Below are positions 3,964-30,404 of a stretch of 36,443 nt of DNA, piece after piece. The notes below the pieces were generated by a model that searched no databases, was not told the DNA's origin, and saw only the letters and a list, made by a program, of their open reading frames with translations. Position 1 is the first letter of the stretch, and every line of letters starts with the position of its first letter. Source of the DNA: a virus; the IMG/VR virus record IMGVR_UViG_3300027793_002909, positions 1-36,443 of that record; one strand, given 5' to 3'. The position numbers and the translations under genes were made by a program.

Positions 3964-4551
3964 ATGAAGTATCACGATGGCAACATCACCCTGATCGCGG
4001 CGGTTGACATTCCTCAGTTTGCCCGAGTCTCTCGCAACGCCAGCGGCCAGGCCACCCTGGCTCCGGGCAGCGGCCACTGGATCGGCGTGGCGCAGTCTTC
4101 GGTGGCGGCCGGCGAGCCGGTGGCCGTGCAGCCCCGACTCAACGGCGGCACGGTGCCGATGATCGCGGCGGCAGCGATTCCCAACAACGGCCACGTCTTT
4201 GAGCGGGGTTCCGGCAAGATCGGCCCGGCGCCGATCAACGGCGTGGGCGCACCGATCGGCCGGGCCATGCAAGCCGCCAGCGGTGACAACGCGGTGATCG
4301 AGGTGGTGGAGTTGCCGGCGGCAACCCACACCATCTATACCGCCAGTGCCGGCGACGACACGGCCAACCAGGCGGACATTGACACCGGGCTGGGCGTGAA
4401 CCCCACGACGGCCTTCGCGCTGATCCGGTCTACGGCGGGCGTGATTCGCGTGCCCACCGGCGCCGTGAGCTTCCCCGGTTCGGCCGGCGTGGTGCGCGTG
4501 GTGGACACGGGCCTGGCGGTCAACGAGGTCATTCTGCTGATGACCTTCTGA
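3964..4551 (+). CDS. capsid decoration/stabilisation protein (position of lambda gpD)
   Basis: This 195-residue protein lies between the protease and the major capsid gene, where lambda encodes gpD. Residues 1-115 are short beta strands and glycine turns with the pattern GVAQSSVAAGEPVAV followed by a Gly-Thr-Val-Pro segment and GRAMQAASGDNAVIEVVE. This pattern resembles the DUF2190/gpD-like proteins that bind the outer face of mature capsids. A further ~75-residue domain (from about 122) with AFALIRSTAGVIRV may be an added surface domain. AAGGACAG upstream (about 3951) serves as ribosome binding site. The role is inferred from position and beta-rich composition. Confidence 0.6.
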   Translation: MKYHDGNITLIAAVDIPQFARVSRNASGQATLAPGSGHWIGVAQSSVAAGEPVAVQPRLNGGTVPMIAAAAIPNNGHVFERGSGKIGPAPINGVGAPIGRAMQAASGDNAVIEVVELPAATHTIYTASAGDDTANQADIDTGLGVNPTTAFALIRSTAGVIRVPTGAVSFPGSAGVVRVVDTGLAVNEVILLMTF

Positions 4552-21295: not shown

Positions 21296-21483
21296 ACGGC
21301 ACGGCATTCTCCGCCCCGTCGACGACAGGCGACGGGTGCGGCTTCTCTCTCTCCTCCACAGCTCGGGTATCGCCGCAAGGTGATGCCCGGGTTTCCAGGG
21401 CCGGGTGACGTCAGAGAGAACCAAACGGCGAGGCTGCGGCGCGTGCCGCGGCTGTGCTGTTGTCTTGTGTGTGGAGATGTGTC
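21296..21483 (+). ncRNA. structured leader RNA candidate before 21484
   Basis: Three pairings are visible: CCCGTCG/CGACGGG (21315-21321 with 21330-21336), TTCTCTCT/AGAGAGAA (21343-21350 with 21413-21420), and enclosed by the latter a 10-bp stem CTCGGGTATC/GATGCCCGGG (21362-21371 with 21382-21391, two G-U pairs) with loop GCCGCAAGGT. No gene is in this stretch. A cis-regulatory RNA is inferred; it does not match a riboswitch that I recognise. Confidence 0.4.
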
Positions 21484-22245
21484 ATGGCTGAACTGGTGAA
21501 CGTGGTGATGAAGCTTCGGGCGGCGGGTGGCGGCGAGGTGCCCATGCTGATGAAGAGCTACGACGTGGACGCCAACGACGTGATGAAGGAGTGGAAGGAG
21601 GCCAGCAAGAGGACCAAGGACAAGAGCGTGCCCGGGGATGACCGGACCCCGCCCTGGCGGTGGACGCTGGCGATGTACTCCACCAGGCGGGACGGGGCGG
21701 GGAAGACGGTGCGGGAGTTGCTGGCCCTGCCGCGGCAGAACCTGATCGCGGCGATGGTCAACAAGGGGGCGACGTTTGAGTACAAGCAGAAGCTGAGCTG
21801 CAAGCACCTGGCCACCACCGGCATGGTGTGGCTGGGCGACCCGGATGCGGTGATGCTGGTGGACGGCAAAGAGGTGGACGTGGGGGCGATGAAGGTGGAG
21901 GCGAAGAAGCTGGAGAAGCAGCCGTTTGAAGAGCAGTACGACGTGGCCAAGCGGTTGGGCCATGGGTGCATTGCGCTGGACGTTCGTGGTGTCGGCATTG
22001 GCAAGGGCAAGGACAAGACGCGGCACGTGCGGGTGCGGCCCCGGATCAGCCGGTGGTCGGCGGAGTTCCAGGCGTTGATTGAGCCGGACCTGGTGGACAC
22101 GCTGACCGAGCTGCTGCGGTACTGCGGGAGCATGGCGGGGCTGGGCGACTGGCGGCCGGCGGGGCCGACGCCCGGGGTGTTCGGCAAGTTTGATGCTGAT
22201 GTGGAGGTGGTGGGTGGGAAGGGGGCGGCCAGTGGAAAGCACTGA
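21484..22245 (+). CDS. early phage protein, conserved-looking, function unknown
   Basis: Start at ATG 21484 (GGAG upstream); in-frame upstream starts lie in the structured leader. The 253-residue protein is rich in Lys and Val in its first two thirds. Blocks such as LSCKHLATTGMVWLGDP and the closing ISRWSAEFQALIEPDLVD with LRYCGSMAGLGDWRPAGPTPGVFGKF recall phage proteins whose last ~60 residues carry a strand, a Leu-rich helix and a G-[LI]-G-D-[WF]-R-P motif. I know this ending from unannotated phage proteins near replication genes but have no function for it. No enzyme motif is seen. Confidence 0.6.
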   Translation: MAELVNVVMKLRAAGGGEVPMLMKSYDVDANDVMKEWKEASKRTKDKSVPGDDRTPPWRWTLAMYSTRRDGAGKTVRELLALPRQNLIAAMVNKGATFEYKQKLSCKHLATTGMVWLGDPDAVMLVDGKEVDVGAMKVEAKKLEKQPFEEQYDVAKRLGHGCIALDVRGVGIGKGKDKTRHVRVRPRISRWSAEFQALIEPDLVDTLTELLRYCGSMAGLGDWRPAGPTPGVFGKFDADVEVVGGKGAASGKH

Positions 22246-22762
22246 ACACGAACACGACGACGGCGAGCGTGGCGGGGTGATCACGGGCCGGTCGTATGAG
22301 CCGCAGTTGCGTGCCCTGCTGGAGAAGATGGCGCCGATGCAGCGCGGCGACCTGGTGACGCGGGCCACGCTGGCTGAGTGGAGCGGCGAGGCTGTGGACG
22401 GGCACCGCATGAATGGGCTGATCGCTGCCCTGCGGAAGCGGCTGCTGAAGGATCGCGGCATCAAGCTGGCGTGCGAGCGGTACCGCGGGTATCGGCTGCT
22501 GCCGGCTGGCGAGCAGTTGCGGGACGGCTGCATGCAAATGGAGCGGGCTGCCCGCATGGTGCGGAACGGCGCCAAGGTGGCGGCGGCGGCACCGGACGCC
22601 GAACTGAGCCCGCGGGACCGCGAGCGGAAGTTGAGCGCGGTGGTGGCCATGGCCGGCATGGAGGCGATGCTGACCAAGCACGTGGACACGCTGGACCTGC
22701 TGGAGGAACGGCGGGCAGCGCGTCGGGCACGCGAGCTGCCGGGCTCAGCGACGGGGGCGTGA
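22232..22762 (+). CDS. winged-helix-like early protein, unknown
   Basis: Start chosen at GTG 22232, overlapping the previous stop region by 14 bases. The 176-residue protein contains, at about residues 18-75, LRALLEKMAPMQRGDLVTRA, a turn, then RMNGLIAALRKRLLKDRGIKLACERYRGYRLL: helix, helix and a terminal beta wing with Arg-Tyr-Arg-Gly-Tyr-Arg-Leu, as in winged-helix DNA-binding domains. The remainder is helical and basic with a segment like RKLSAVVAMAGMEAMLTKHVD. It could be an early regulator or a replication accessory factor. It is followed by the long repeat region. Confidence 0.55.
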   Translation: MESTEHEHDDGERGGVITGRSYEPQLRALLEKMAPMQRGDLVTRATLAEWSGEAVDGHRMNGLIAALRKRLLKDRGIKLACERYRGYRLLPAGEQLRDGCMQMERAARMVRNGAKVAAAAPDAELSPRDRERKLSAVVAMAGMEAMLTKHVDTLDLLEERRAARRARELPGSATGA

Positions 22763-23223
22763 GCAACGACCGCGGCGCCGGAGACGGGCCGCGGGAGATT
22801 TGTGGCATGGCCTGGCTAGGCGGGGCACGGCCAGGTGGAGCATGGAGCCCACAGCGGCGGAGACGCCGGGCGTGGGCATTTGGGGTTCGGTATGGCGAGG
22901 TATGGCGAGGTACGGCCGGGCCTGGCGAGGTATGGAGCCCACGGCGGTGGAGACGCCGAGCGTGGGCATTTGCGGTCTGGCGGGGTTTGGCCGGGTTTGG
23001 TGAGGTCTGGCCGGGTCTGGCAAGGCATGGAGCCCACGGCGGCGGAGACGCCGGGCGTGGGCATTTGAGGTGAGGCATGGCGTGGCGTGGCAAGGCATGG
23101 CCTGGCGGGGCACGGAGCCCGGCGCCGTGGAGACACGGTGGCGGGCCTTTCAGCGGGGCGGGCGGGGCGGCAGCCCCGCCACAGTGGACCAGGACGACAA
23201 CCACGATCGCAAGGAACGACACG
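22763..23223 (+). ncRNA. gene-free region with GG-phased repeat array and four GAGA-loop hairpins
   Basis: Four related hairpins, at 22847-22877, 22937-22967, 23032-23062 and 23117-23146, have an outer GCCCAC(G)/(C)GTGGGC stem (GCCCG/CGGGC in the last) and an inner stem closed by a GAGA tetraloop. Between and before them, GG recurs every 5 nt (GGNNN): 22804-22845, 22884-22935, 22974-23030 and 23069-23115. All GG doublets fall on the same 5-nt register, because each hairpin block spans exactly 40 nt from GG to GG and the unit lengths are 90, 95 and 85 nt. Stem changes are compensated (inner CGGTG with a G-U pair; CCGTG/CACGG in the fourth). An ORF can be read through (22759-23073), but the 5-nt period does not suit coding. 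Most likely a structured RNA or DNA control element. Confidence 0.6.
23141..23188 (+). repeat. 47-48 nt repeated hairpin element, copy 1
   Basis: GCGGGCCTTT, then AGCGGGGC, then the 8-bp hairpin GGCGGGGC-GGCA-GCCCCGCC (23161-23180) and ACAGTGGA. An almost identical copy is at 25741-25787. Each copy is preceded by a GC-rich hairpin ending GGCGGGC and followed 25-35 bases later by an early gene. Two consecutive hairpins upstream of a gene suggest a transcript-borne control signal. Confidence 0.7.
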
Positions 23224-23781
23224 ATGAGCAGCGACACGGCAGAGATCAGACAGCGGGCAACCAAGATCGAAGTGCGAACCGCACAGCAGGCCGCACCGCC
23301 GGTGCCGGCGGCCAGGACCAGGTACCACAAGCCGCCGTCTGACGTGGTGATCGCGGCGCGGACGCTGAAGCCGGGGCAGTGGTTCGAGCGGCTGGGCGTG
23401 GAGCGGGTGGGTGGCTGGACGGTGATGGACCGGCGGATCGCGCTGCAGACGGCTGGCGCGATGAACGGCAGCCTGCGGGTGGGCAAGGTGAAGGCGGCGG
23501 CGTATGCCGCCCAGGGCGGGCAAACGGGTGCGGAGTGGCGGGTGGTGGTGGTGTACTCGGACAACCCGGGCAAGGTGCCCGACGGCATGGGTACGGCGCC
23601 GGTGAAGGCGGCGGGGGGTGCGGTGGGTGCGGAGCTGGCGGTGCGGAGCGACGCGGAGAAGGCCGCGGAGCGGGCACGGCTGGAGAGGAAGCTGAGCGGG
23701 CGTGGGCCTGTGGCGGGGTTTGACAGCCCGGGCAAGAGCGGGCGGGCACGGGCGATTCGCAACACCGAGAGCGAGGAGTAA
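23224..23781 (+). CDS. early protein, unknown function
   Basis: Start at ATG 23224 preceded by AAGGA; the frame upstream runs through the hairpin element and is rejected. The 185-residue protein has a polar N-terminus, a central globular part with VVIAARTLKPGQWFERLGVE and WRVVVVYSDNPGKVPDG, and a highly charged helical end (DAEKAAERARLERKLSGRG). The segment ARTLKPG resembles ARTLKPAW in the protein at 25813, and both genes follow the same repeated hairpin element, so they may be functionally linked. No family recognised. Confidence 0.55.
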   Translation: MSSDTAEIRQRATKIEVRTAQQAAPPVPAARTRYHKPPSDVVIAARTLKPGQWFERLGVERVGGWTVMDRRIALQTAGAMNGSLRVGKVKAAAYAAQGGQTGAEWRVVVVYSDNPGKVPDGMGTAPVKAAGGAVGAELAVRSDAEKAAERARLERKLSGRGPVAGFDSPGKSGRARAIRNTESEE

Positions 23782-27224: not shown

Positions 27225-30200
27225 ATGACCAGCGTGCGGCGACAGATTGGCGAGGGCGGGGCGGTGGCGCCGGGTGGTGGTGGTGGCACGCTGCGGCGGG
27301 GTGGCACGGGCCTGGATGCGGGCGTGGTGCGGGGGGCGGTGAACATCGCGGACGTGGCGGCCAAGATGCTGTGCATTCAGCTGAGCAAGGCGACCAACGG
27401 CGAGCTGGAGGGGCTGTGCCCGCTGCATGACGACCACAACCCGAGCTTTCGGATCAACGTGCGGAAGCAGCGGTGGTTCTGCAATAGCACGTGCGGCGGC
27501 GGGGATGTGTTCAACCTGGTGGAGAAGGTGCTGGGGGTGGACTTCCCGACGGCCCTGCGGCGGGTGGCGGAGTTTGCGGGGCTGGGGGGTGTGGCGGTGC
27601 CGGGGGACAACGCGGAGCTGACCATCGACCCGGCCAAGGCCGCGGAGGCGGAGCAGCGGGCACGGGAGGCGGAGGCCGAGCGGGAGCGAGATGAGGCCAA
27701 GCGGCGGCGGCGGGCGGTGCAAGCAGCGCAGAAGACCTGGGGGCGTGCGGCGGGCAACCGGGACCACGAGCACGTGCGGCGGTATGTGGAGGGGCGGGGC
27801 GTGCCGGTGGCGGCGCTGCCCGAGGGCAAGCTGCCGGCGAGCGTGGGGTATGTGGCGGACCTGCCGCTGCCCAGCAAGGACCAGGAGGAGGGCGCTGGTG
27901 AGCCGGGCGGGCCTGCGATCGCCCGGGGGCCGGCGGCGGTGCTGCGGTGGACCAAGCGCGTGGTGCACCCCGACGGGCGGCACGGCACGGTGGTGACGGG
28001 CGTGCAGCGGATCTATCTGGCCGAGCAGGGGGACGGCAAGCGGGCGGGGATGGCGGACCCGAAGGTGACGCTGGGGAGCGTGAGCCAGGGCGGGGGCATC
28101 AAGCTGAACCGGGCGACGGACGCCGAGGGCGTGACGCTGTGGGTGTGTGAAGGGCCGGAGACGGGCCTGGCGCTGCTGGCCGCGGTGGGCACGCTGCCGG
28201 GCGGGTGGGCGAGCAACGAGGTGTGGAGCCTGCTGGCGGCCCCGCAGGTGCGGCACCTGGCCCTGGGCAAGGTGCCGGAGGCCGAGCTGGGGCGGCGGGT
28301 GAGCCGGTTGGTGATCGCGGGGGACCTTGACAAGAGCCGAGCGGGGCAGAAGGCCGCGGCGGCGGGGGCGGCCACGGTGGCGGCGGAGCTGGCCCACGTG
28401 GGCCTGCGGGGGCTGTGCGAGGTGGCGGTGGCGTTGCCGGACCATGCGGCCGCGGGTGCGGAGCTGGTGGACGCGGACGGCAAGCCGGTGGCGGGGAAGA
28501 GCGTGGATTGGTTGGATGTGGTGGCACGGCATGGCGTGGCGGAGGCGGGGCGGCGGCTGGCGGATGCGGCGGCACGCGGGCCGGTGGCAGTGCCGGTGGG
28601 CGACGGCGAGGCGGAGGGGGCTGCGGGAGCGGGCGTGGCGGCGGTGAGCCAGGAGGACGCGGAGGCGGCCGCGGCGGCGGTGCTGGAGGCTGCGGCTGGG
28701 GACGGTGGTGGCTGGGGCGGTGGTGGTGACCAGGACGCGGGTGGGTGGGACGAGCGGAGGGACCCGGAGGGGCGGCCGATTCTGGACGACGACCGAACGC
28801 TGAAGGCGAGGAGCATGCTGCGGATGCGGTTTGCGCCGTGCCGAGCGAACGACCTGCTGCCCGCGGAGGTGGACGGCGCGTGGCGTGTGCAGTGCTACCA
28901 GAGCCTGTGGTACATCTGGCACCGTGACGCGAAGGGCGGCACGCGATGGGTGCCGATCAGCCAGGACCAGATGCACGCCATGGCCACGGCGACATTCGCG
29001 CAGTGCGTGACGTGGCAAAAGCGGCGGTTTCGGCCTGCGGCGCTGGCGGCGAGCGGCGTGGACGGGGTTCTGAAGGCCGCAGTGTATTACGTGGACGCCG
29101 GCGTGAGCCCGGAAGACCTGCCGCGATGGCTGCCGGCTGCTGCGGGACAGGACGGGCGGCCGTCATGGCGTTCACCCTTGGACACCAAGCCAACGGACGA
29201 GGACCGCGACCGCGACGTGATTGCTGTGATGAACGGACTGGTGCACGTGCGGGATTTCTTGGAGGGCAGGCCGCAGGTGAGGCCCCACACCAGCCGTTGG
29301 TTTAACACGGTGTGCCTTCCCTTCACGATCGCGCCGGAGCGGCTGGCGACGGTTGCCAACGAGGACGGCGAGGACCTGGAGACGGTGTGGCGTGAGGTAT
29401 GCCCGCGGTGGATGGCGTTTCTGGCCGAAACGTTCGGGGCTGAGAGCCAGTGCATTGAGGCACTGCAGCGGTGGTTCGGCTACTGCCTGACCGCTGACAC
29501 CAGCCACCAGAAGGTGTTGTATTTGCAGGGTCTTCCGGGCACGGGCAAGGGAACGATCCGGGAGGTGCTCACGTGCATCCTGGGCGAGCAGAACGTGCAC
29601 AACGCCACGATGGACGAGCTGGCCGGGCGGTTCGACGTTGCGCCCATGGTCGGCAAAGCCGCGGTGGTGATCCCCGAGATTGAGATGGATTCAAAGACGA
29701 GCAAGGCGGCGGCGCTGACCCGGCTCAAGAGCATCACCGGCGGCGATCCCCAATCGGTGGAGCGGAAGCACCGCGAGCGGATCGGCCACGTGCGGATCCG
29801 GGCCAAGTTCATGTTGACCCCGAATACCGAGCCGAACCTGCCCGACAGCTCCGCGGCGTTGATCAGGCGGCTGATTGTGGTGCCGATGGGGAGGCCGCCG
29901 GCGAAGGTGGACCCCACGCTGCCCGAGCAGTTGAAGGCGGAGGCCACCGGGATCTTGTTGTGGGCGCTGGTGGGCCTGCGGAGGGTGCGCACCGCGGGCG
30001 GCCTGCTGCAGCCCGAAGAAGGGCGGCGCATGCTGGAGCAGATGCGGCGGAACATGAGCCCGGTGCGGGCGTTCGTCGATGACTGGTGTGTGCTGGGCCC
30101 AGGCGAGAGCTGCGATTGTGCTGTGCTGCGTGACGGATTCGGCGTGTACTGCGAGCGTGAGCTGGGGACAGATCGGTGGTCGGCGCCGGCGTTTGGCCGT

Positions 30201-30404
30201 GCGTTGATGGCTGCCGTCGGCGGCGTGCAGCATGACCGAGAGGGCACCGGCGAGCGGGCGTGGGTCTACACTGGCATCCGCCCGCTGCTGGCGGGCGAGG
30301 ACCGGGCGGAACCTTGCAAGAATGTGCACGTTAGGGTGGGGGTGACGTTCCCCGGCCCCGTTTGGGGTGAGAGTTCGGCATCCGAAACTAGCACGATCTT
30401 CTAG
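27225..30404 (+). CDS. primase-helicase (CHC2 zinc finger, Toprim, SF3/D5-like ATPase)
   Basis: A 1059-residue fusion. Residues 65-90 form a DnaG-type zinc site C65-x2-H68-x17-C86-x3-C90 (CPLHDDHNPSF ... CNSTCGGGDVF). A Toprim-like domain follows with Glu309 (VCEGPET) and Asp367-x-Asp369 (AGDLDKS). A Gly/Ala-rich linker (about 460-515) leads to a helicase of the D5/SF3 kind: Walker A GLPGTGKGT at 769-777, Walker B-like VVIPEIE near 815-821, and KFMLTPNTEPNLPDSSAALIRRL with the sensor Asn and arginine finger. It would prime and unwind DNA at the phage origin. The start at ATG 27225 has AAGGA upstream. It is the only replication enzyme recognised in the window. Confidence 0.85.
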   Translation: MTSVRRQIGEGGAVAPGGGGGTLRRGGTGLDAGVVRGAVNIADVAAKMLCIQLSKATNGELEGLCPLHDDHNPSFRINVRKQRWFCNSTCGGGDVFNLVEKVLGVDFPTALRRVAEFAGLGGVAVPGDNAELTIDPAKAAEAEQRAREAEAERERDEAKRRRRAVQAAQKTWGRAAGNRDHEHVRRYVEGRGVPVAALPEGKLPASVGYVADLPLPSKDQEEGAGEPGGPAIARGPAAVLRWTKRVVHPDGRHGTVVTGVQRIYLAEQGDGKRAGMADPKVTLGSVSQGGGIKLNRATDAEGVTLWVCEGPETGLALLAAVGTLPGGWASNEVWSLLAAPQVRHLALGKVPEAELGRRVSRLVIAGDLDKSRAGQKAAAAGAATVAAELAHVGLRGLCEVAVALPDHAAAGAELVDADGKPVAGKSVDWLDVVARHGVAEAGRRLADAAARGPVAVPVGDGEAEGAAGAGVAAVSQEDAEAAAAAVLEAAAGDGGGWGGGGDQDAGGWDERRDPEGRPILDDDRTLKARSMLRMRFAPCRANDLLPAEVDGAWRVQCYQSLWYIWHRDAKGGTRWVPISQDQMHAMATATFAQCVTWQKRRFRPAALAASGVDGVLKAAVYYVDAGVSPEDLPRWLPAAAGQDGRPSWRSPLDTKPTDEDRDRDVIAVMNGLVHVRDFLEGRPQVRPHTSRWFNTVCLPFTIAPERLATVANEDGEDLETVWREVCPRWMAFLAETFGAESQCIEALQRWFGYCLTADTSHQKVLYLQGLPGTGKGTIREVLTCILGEQNVHNATMDELAGRFDVAPMVGKAAVVIPEIEMDSKTSKAAALTRLKSITGGDPQSVERKHRERIGHVRIRAKFMLTPNTEPNLPDSSAALIRRLIVVPMGRPPAKVDPTLPEQLKAEATGILLWALVGLRRVRTAGGLLQPEEGRRMLEQMRRNMSPVRAFVDDWCVLGPGESCDCAVLRDGFGVYCERELGTDRWSAPAFGRALMAAVGGVQHDREGTGERAWVYTGIRPLLAGEDRAEPCKNVHVRVGVTFPGPVWGESSASETSTIF

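Follow-up and report, generated by a model that had tools for sequence, protein, structure and literature searches.

A GGYNN repeat array in an uncultivated GC-rich phage, read as the guide array of a divergent type II-like VIPR system

We analysed a repeat element in an uncultivated viral contig (IMG/VR record IMGVR_UViG_3300027793_002909, the whole 36,443-nt stretch being called the window here) and conclude with high confidence that it constitutes the guide array of a VIPR system that the phage encodes, arranged as vipr, vap1 and four vrRNAs and most like the type II system of Escherichia phage SUSP1. An earlier note on this DNA knew of no published element like it; one exists, since VIPR (Viral Interference Programmable Repeat) was presented in a 2026 preprint (PMC13142463; bioRxiv 2026.04.26.720920) as a phage RAMP protein, Vipr, together with vrRNAs that carry 9-16 YNNGG (GGY/NN) repeats and a structured 3' tail. 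In these vrRNAs GGY is constant, NN is hypervariable and the 3' tail is invariable, the NN pair with double-stranded DNA at a 1-nt skip, the skips fall on codon wobble positions, and the targets are competing mobile elements (PMC13142463).

The locus, all of it on the plus strand, is laid out as follows.

21484-22245, plus strand: vipr, predicted RAMP protein of 253 aa (HMM, PHROG, PDB 36pp and predicted fold)
22232-22762, plus strand: vap1-like accessory gene (phrog_5926; start uncertain, the ORF opens at 22190)
22798-22803, plus strand: leader ATTTGT before vrRNA1, from the sequence
22804-22843, plus strand: vrRNA1 variable tract, 8 units, NN = AT CT TA GG AC CA GG AT
22844-22883, plus strand: vrRNA1 3' tail, GGAG, GAGA-loop hairpin (22847-22877) and ATTTG; fold -22.3 kcal/mol, z -3.91
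22884-22933, plus strand: vrRNA2 variable tract, 10 units, NN = TC AT GA AT GA AC CG CT GA AT
22934-22973, plus strand: vrRNA2 3' tail, hairpin 22937-22967; fold -23.6 kcal/mol, z -4.22
22974-23028, plus strand: vrRNA3 variable tract, 11 units, NN = CT GG TT CG TT GA CT CG CT AA AT
23029-23068, plus strand: vrRNA3 3' tail, hairpin 23032-23062; fold -25.5 kcal/mol, z -5.03
23069-23113, plus strand: vrRNA4 variable tract, 9 units, NN = GA AT GT GT AA AT CT GG AC
23114-23153, plus strand: vrRNA4 3' tail, hairpin 23117-23146; fold -26.7 kcal/mol, z -4.83
23161-23180, plus strand: GC-rich hairpin GGCGGGGC-GGCA-GCCCCGCC just 3' of the array, from the sequence

Anatomy of the array

GG doublets start at 22804-22844 in tract 1 (9 positions, with one AG at 22839), at 22884-22934 in tract 2 (n=11), at 22974-23029 in tract 3 (n=12) and at 23069-23114 in tract 4 (n=10), each count including the GG that opens the tail, and this position count confirms the earlier description of four GGNNN tracts of 9, 11, 12 and 10 units (one AG) alternating with four hairpins. 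The unit is in fact GGYNN: throughout the four tracts of the window array base 3 is C or T, and this pyrimidine, absent from the earlier description, is a real part of the motif. The last unit of vrRNA1 is probably constant, and ATTTG plus one nucleotide precedes vrRNAs 2-4 as well as vrRNA1. Within 22800-23150, 51 of the 77 GG dinucleotides share one of five phases, and Markov models fitted to the window at orders 1-3 produced a longest GG run of 9 (20 simulations each) against the observed 11 and 12; when order-3 models are fitted to the array itself, their runs come close to or match the observed lengths, as expected of models that have already learned the array.

Long ORFs overlap the array, at 22378-23073 and on the minus strand, and could be taken to mark a protein-coding repeat. 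We find this scarcely credible, given that the 5-nt period shifts the reading frame at every unit and that 22378-23070 has no Pfam or PHROG match; the window has a GC content of 70%, so chance ORFs are common. Searches returned no DNA similarity in phage records and nothing in Rfam at the gathering score, the sub-threshold Rfam matches to ROSE_3 and VA being judged chance.

Tail hairpins and the 5-nt register

All four tail hairpins are more stable than all 200 of their shuffles, and folding bears out that a GAGA loop caps each of them and that the fourth stem, of different sequence, keeps its pairing. Minimum free energy (MFE) folding, a method that does not model pseudoknots, predicts a simple hairpin and no pseudoknot, and the tail pseudoknot of the preprint is described for the SUSP1 clade alone (PMC13142463). 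The hairpin at 23161-23180, paired in both MFE and centroid structures and without a T run, is a possible array terminator or end structure; terminator prediction did not call a terminator there.

The unbroken 5-nt register that the earlier note had emphasized holds in the window, where blocks 1-3 are exactly 40 nt, but does not hold as a design feature. That note had expected homologous loci to keep the register, and most neighbouring tract pairs there are out of it, with an offset of 1-4 in 82 of 138 pairs and of 0 in the other 56, many of which are one-unit interruptions only. The continuous register in the window is thus a by-product of a 40-nt tail, and its loss in relatives does not speak against the element itself, since each guide RNA has the hairpin as its tail.

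A tail-pattern search of viral contigs returned one true relative, L014 (IMGVR_UViG_3300025848_000267), and three chance matches. In L014 the same tail plan, GGYAT-GGAG-hairpin-(A)AT, follows the tract, and the stems covary between its two tails (L014:2797-2860 and 4144-4200); its constant apical loop (CTGAAATTACGG) is longer and is not GAGA, and the two Viprs are 25% identical. A GNRA-capped tail may mark a VIPR sub-lineage.

Vipr and the vap1-like gene

On homology and modelled structure, the product of 21484-22245 (or of ORF 21454-22245, with a GTG start possible upstream at 21454) is predicted to be a divergent Vipr. An HMM built outward from SUSP1 Vipr, comprising 63 SUSP1-Vipr-like ORFs with the window left out, finds it at E=1.5e-16, and phrog_4652 is matched by SUSP1 Vipr and by each of the 58 array-linked ORFs that were aligned, among them that of the window. 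The sole PDB match of the family profile is 36pp, 'SUSP1 Vipr protein' (E=4.6e-42), which the window protein as a single sequence matches at E=0.0058. Its AF2 model (pLDDT 84.6, pTM 0.83) gave 83 Foldseek matches at E<=0.001, including Csm3 and type VII Cas7, and a Csm3/Cas7 match in VIA with Z 10.4 over ~170 residues. Family columns W191, G215, G219 and G234 are invariant. Identity to other Viprs is 17-31%, and viral contigs yielded no close Vipr relatives.

The vap1-like gene matches phrog_5926 weakly (E=2.8e-7, against 3.6e-75 for SUSP1 vap1), and its product shares 24% identity with SUSP1 vap1 (E=2e-4, one BLASTP comparison); by analogy with type II vap1 it is predicted to bind DNA. In SUSP1 (KT454805), intergenic GGY tracts flank ALH47069.1, taken to be vipr, and ALH47068.1 (vap1). 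The window holds a vipr near the RNA genes, GGY/NN tracts, structured 3' tails and, by the weak phrog_5926 match, the vap1 gene of type II; the order vipr, vap1, vrRNAs suggests type II, to which the locus probably belongs.

As to the surroundings, PADLOC gave no match for the three genes adjoining the array. Directly 3' of the array lies a 185-aa ORF (23224-23781), itself without a PADLOC match, and neither Pfam nor PHROGs gave a match for a longer ORF sharing its frame (23077-23781). The upstream intergenic region 21300-21460 is without GGY tracts, while SUSP1 has one vrRNA upstream of vipr. Further downstream, 27225-30404 encodes a large phage primase (CHC2 zinc finger, Toprim, D5-like) without a close relative in known phage records, and a search for the host of the window phage gave portal matches of at most ~29% identity.

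Related loci and what they say about the array

Scanning viral contigs with GGNNN x10 plus GG alone gave at least 120 stretches, most of them non-repetitive GGYNN tracts, in AT-rich phages as well. We then considered 107 loci, made up of the window, SUSP1 and loci fetched by DNA pattern alone, among the matches listed. Among those matches, 82 of the 107 loci hold a Vipr, 312 of the 313 tracts in Vipr-holding loci lie on the Vipr strand, and base 3 is C or T in 96% of units with NN near even (363 tracts in the 107 loci). The pooled NN of 315 tracts, leaving out the last two units per tract, resemble positions 1-2 of sense codons best among six phases and orientations (KL 0.074 bits, r 0.64, against KL 0.090-0.25 for the other five), which agrees with the published observation of skips at wobble positions (PMC13142463). 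A stricter test, of codon-phase coherence tract by tract, gave no significant result (z 1.17).

These loci bear on two readings in which the array guides nothing. GG every 5 nt can form two-tier quadruplexes, so the spacing in the window would suit a G-quadruplex or other DNA-structure element in DNA or RNA form, for example a replication origin or recombination hot spot. We hold this very improbable: with 312 of 313 tracts on the Vipr strand among the matches listed, a constant structured tail after each tract, hypervariable and non-repetitive NN, and a fixed pyrimidine at position 3 that a quadruplex does not need, the data speak against the quadruplex that the earlier note had raised. A ring-shaped RNA-binding protein other than Vipr might instead use the array as a platform in attenuation. 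TRAP, an 11-mer ring, reads triplets with 2-3-nt spacers, and, like the window, trp leader RNA carries short tandem motifs, ~5 nt from one another, for a protein multimer to read; an 11-mer of this kind would match the 5-nt period and 9-12 units seen here. The motif of the window, however, is GGY/NN and not (G/U)AG, NN is hypervariable, relatives' tracts run from 7 to >30 units without a mode at 11, the conserved neighbour is a RAMP and not TRAP, and the window genes scanned gave no TRAP match, all of which leaves this reading with as little probability as the quadruplex. On the guide-array reading, the earlier proposal of a non-coding RNA with structure, or of an RNA platform that a multimeric protein binds, is right in outline, with guide RNAs expected to bind a multimerising RAMP, whereas a DNA platform set by helical turns and a role in replication or early control proved wrong or unsupported.

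Tract form varies across the array relatives, with lengths of 7 to >30 units. L020, L064 and L118 carry very long GGYNN tracts (>60 overlapping 11-unit windows; published vrRNAs have 9-16 repeats). In L114:5739 (minus-strand coordinate) the tract consists almost wholly of GGTCC/GGTTC-GGCCA repeats, and being near-repetitive it would therefore carry little guide information. L106:3673-4000 has six short GGYNN tracts 44-59 nt apart, split by constant GGCAAGGCAGTTNC, a compact and nearly tail-less array, perhaps in the overlapping (staggered) style of the preprint (PMC13142463).

Candidate guide targets

Each of the four guides gives open codons when decoded with a 1-nt skip. The vrRNA1 code, ATnCTnTAnGGnACnCAnGGnAT, has one exact match (16/16) in 2.3 Mb of searched DNA, both strands counted, at L017:3150-3172. 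The site reads ATG CTG TAC GGC ACA CAT GGC ATC = MLYGTHGI(GKS), in frame, and corresponds to codons 15-22, the Walker A motif, of an AAA_24 ATPase of 248 aa (PF13479, E=8.4e-47); among the relatives of this ATPase some are annotated as Sak4-like ssDNA annealing proteins. None of 150 order-shuffled decoys reaches 16/16; without the last, probably constant unit, 14 informative bases are left and 1 of 150 decoys reaches 14/14, and skips of 0, 2 and 3 give at most 13/16. Computed from 4^-16 and 4^-14 and allowing for four guides, such a match would arise by chance with a frequency of ~0.2% (16 bases) to 3% (14 bases). It is suggestive, not proven, that vrRNA1 targets an AAA_24 (Sak4-like) gene near its 5' end, at the codons for Walker A, with the skip at the wobble position.

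In 7 of 8 other AAA_24-like genes examined the best match to the vrRNA1 code (9-13 of 16 bases) is also at Walker A, because the protein sequence is shared, and these matches show only what the guide is written against. Within the window we found neither an AAA_24 gene nor a vrRNA1 site within 3 mismatches. Brought into the set of loci by a VIPR array of its own, L017 is a plausible rival phage.

Matches for the other guides were of chance type or absent. With all units, vrRNAs 2-4 had 0 matches in viral contigs; the vrRNA2 core had 0 there and 9 scattered matches in a genome collection of ~85,000 species (~7.5 expected by chance). The two that fall in neuA-like genes, where the protein motif agrees with the code, were judged chance. 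The vrRNA3 core had 0 matches in that collection, the first 9 units of vrRNA3 had 4 in viral contigs, none sense-direction in frame with the code, and vrRNA4 had no exact match in viral contigs. With 1 mismatch, vrRNA1 gave 11 matches in 398 genomes of one phylum, none exact and none in an AAA_24 gene (5 for the reversed-pattern control), and with 2 mismatches vrRNAs 1 and 4 gave chance matches only in 50 whole viral records. Guides of other loci, compared with all loci collected, gave no clear signal under any skip rule, the window guides apart; in this comparison the vrRNA2 and vrRNA3 entries are circular because loci were fetched by those guides.

The failure to find targets for three guides, and the AG that replaces one GG in vrRNA1, would fit an array derived from VIPR that has lost its activity and holds relic guides. 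We give this little weight, though more than the quadruplex or TRAP readings: vipr and vap1 are both intact, as are the four tails, the fourth tail pairs with a different sequence, and missing target matches are to be expected for an uncultivated phage.

Proposed mechanism

Taking what was observed of the array and the folding of its tails, of the homology and fold of Vipr, and of strand association together with the published system (PMC13142463), a working guide array would be transcribed and processed into four vrRNAs. Vipr subunits would assemble along each vrRNA, assumed here to be one per GGYNN unit, with GGY held by the protein and NN exposed; the NN pairs would recognise double-stranded DNA with one base skipped per unit, and the bound complex would block transcription of competing phage or satellite genes (PMC13142463). 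vrRNA1 would be aimed at an AAA_24 (Sak4-like) gene, whose Walker A codons, close to the 5' end, it would read with the wobble base skipped.

That the window represents a distinct VIPR lineage, defined by GNRA-capped guide tails and a first guide against the codons of the conserved Walker A motif of a Sak4-like annealing protein with the skip at wobble positions, is a tentative proposal that we consider less likely than not. If it were true, a single Walker A guide could target a wide range of rival phages and withstand escape by silent mutation. A general guide preference for Walker A is unsupported in one test, in which 316 guides showed no Walker A enrichment.

Comparison with known systems and significance

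The closest comparison is the type II system of SUSP1 (KT454805; PMC13142463; PDB 36pp), which has the same order of vipr, vap1 and downstream vrRNAs on one strand and has GGY/NN repeats, a structured 3' tail and both protein PHROGs in common with the window. The window differs in its distant Vipr, in having all four guides downstream with none found upstream of vipr, in a tail that is a GAGA-tetraloop hairpin with an internal loop and, under MFE folding, no predicted pseudoknot, and in its 70% GC. Class 1 CRISPR systems resemble VIPR in a guide RNA made of a variable part and a constant handle, and the predicted fold of the window Vipr is like their effectors Csm3 and type VII Cas7 (Z about 10). 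No cas genes or CRISPR repeats were seen beside the array, and its guides are gapped NN pairs rather than contiguous spacers; a CRISPR-Cas array was rejected, as 22700-23300 has just 69-75% identical 124-nt repeats in register and no CRISPR-type repeats.

VIPR is a very new RNA-guided system and a proposed ancestor of class 1 CRISPR, and the present locus adds to it a divergent, uncultivated phage rich in GC, with a tail hairpin of simple form. The protein-free GGNNN search, with over 100 array loci among the matches listed, most of them with a Vipr gene, independently confirms the published link between array and Vipr and offers a quick route to more loci. The names Vipr and vap1 can now be given to phrog_4652 and phrog_5926, two families listed as 'unknown function' in PHROGs v4, and the suggested Walker A target is a direct, testable prediction.
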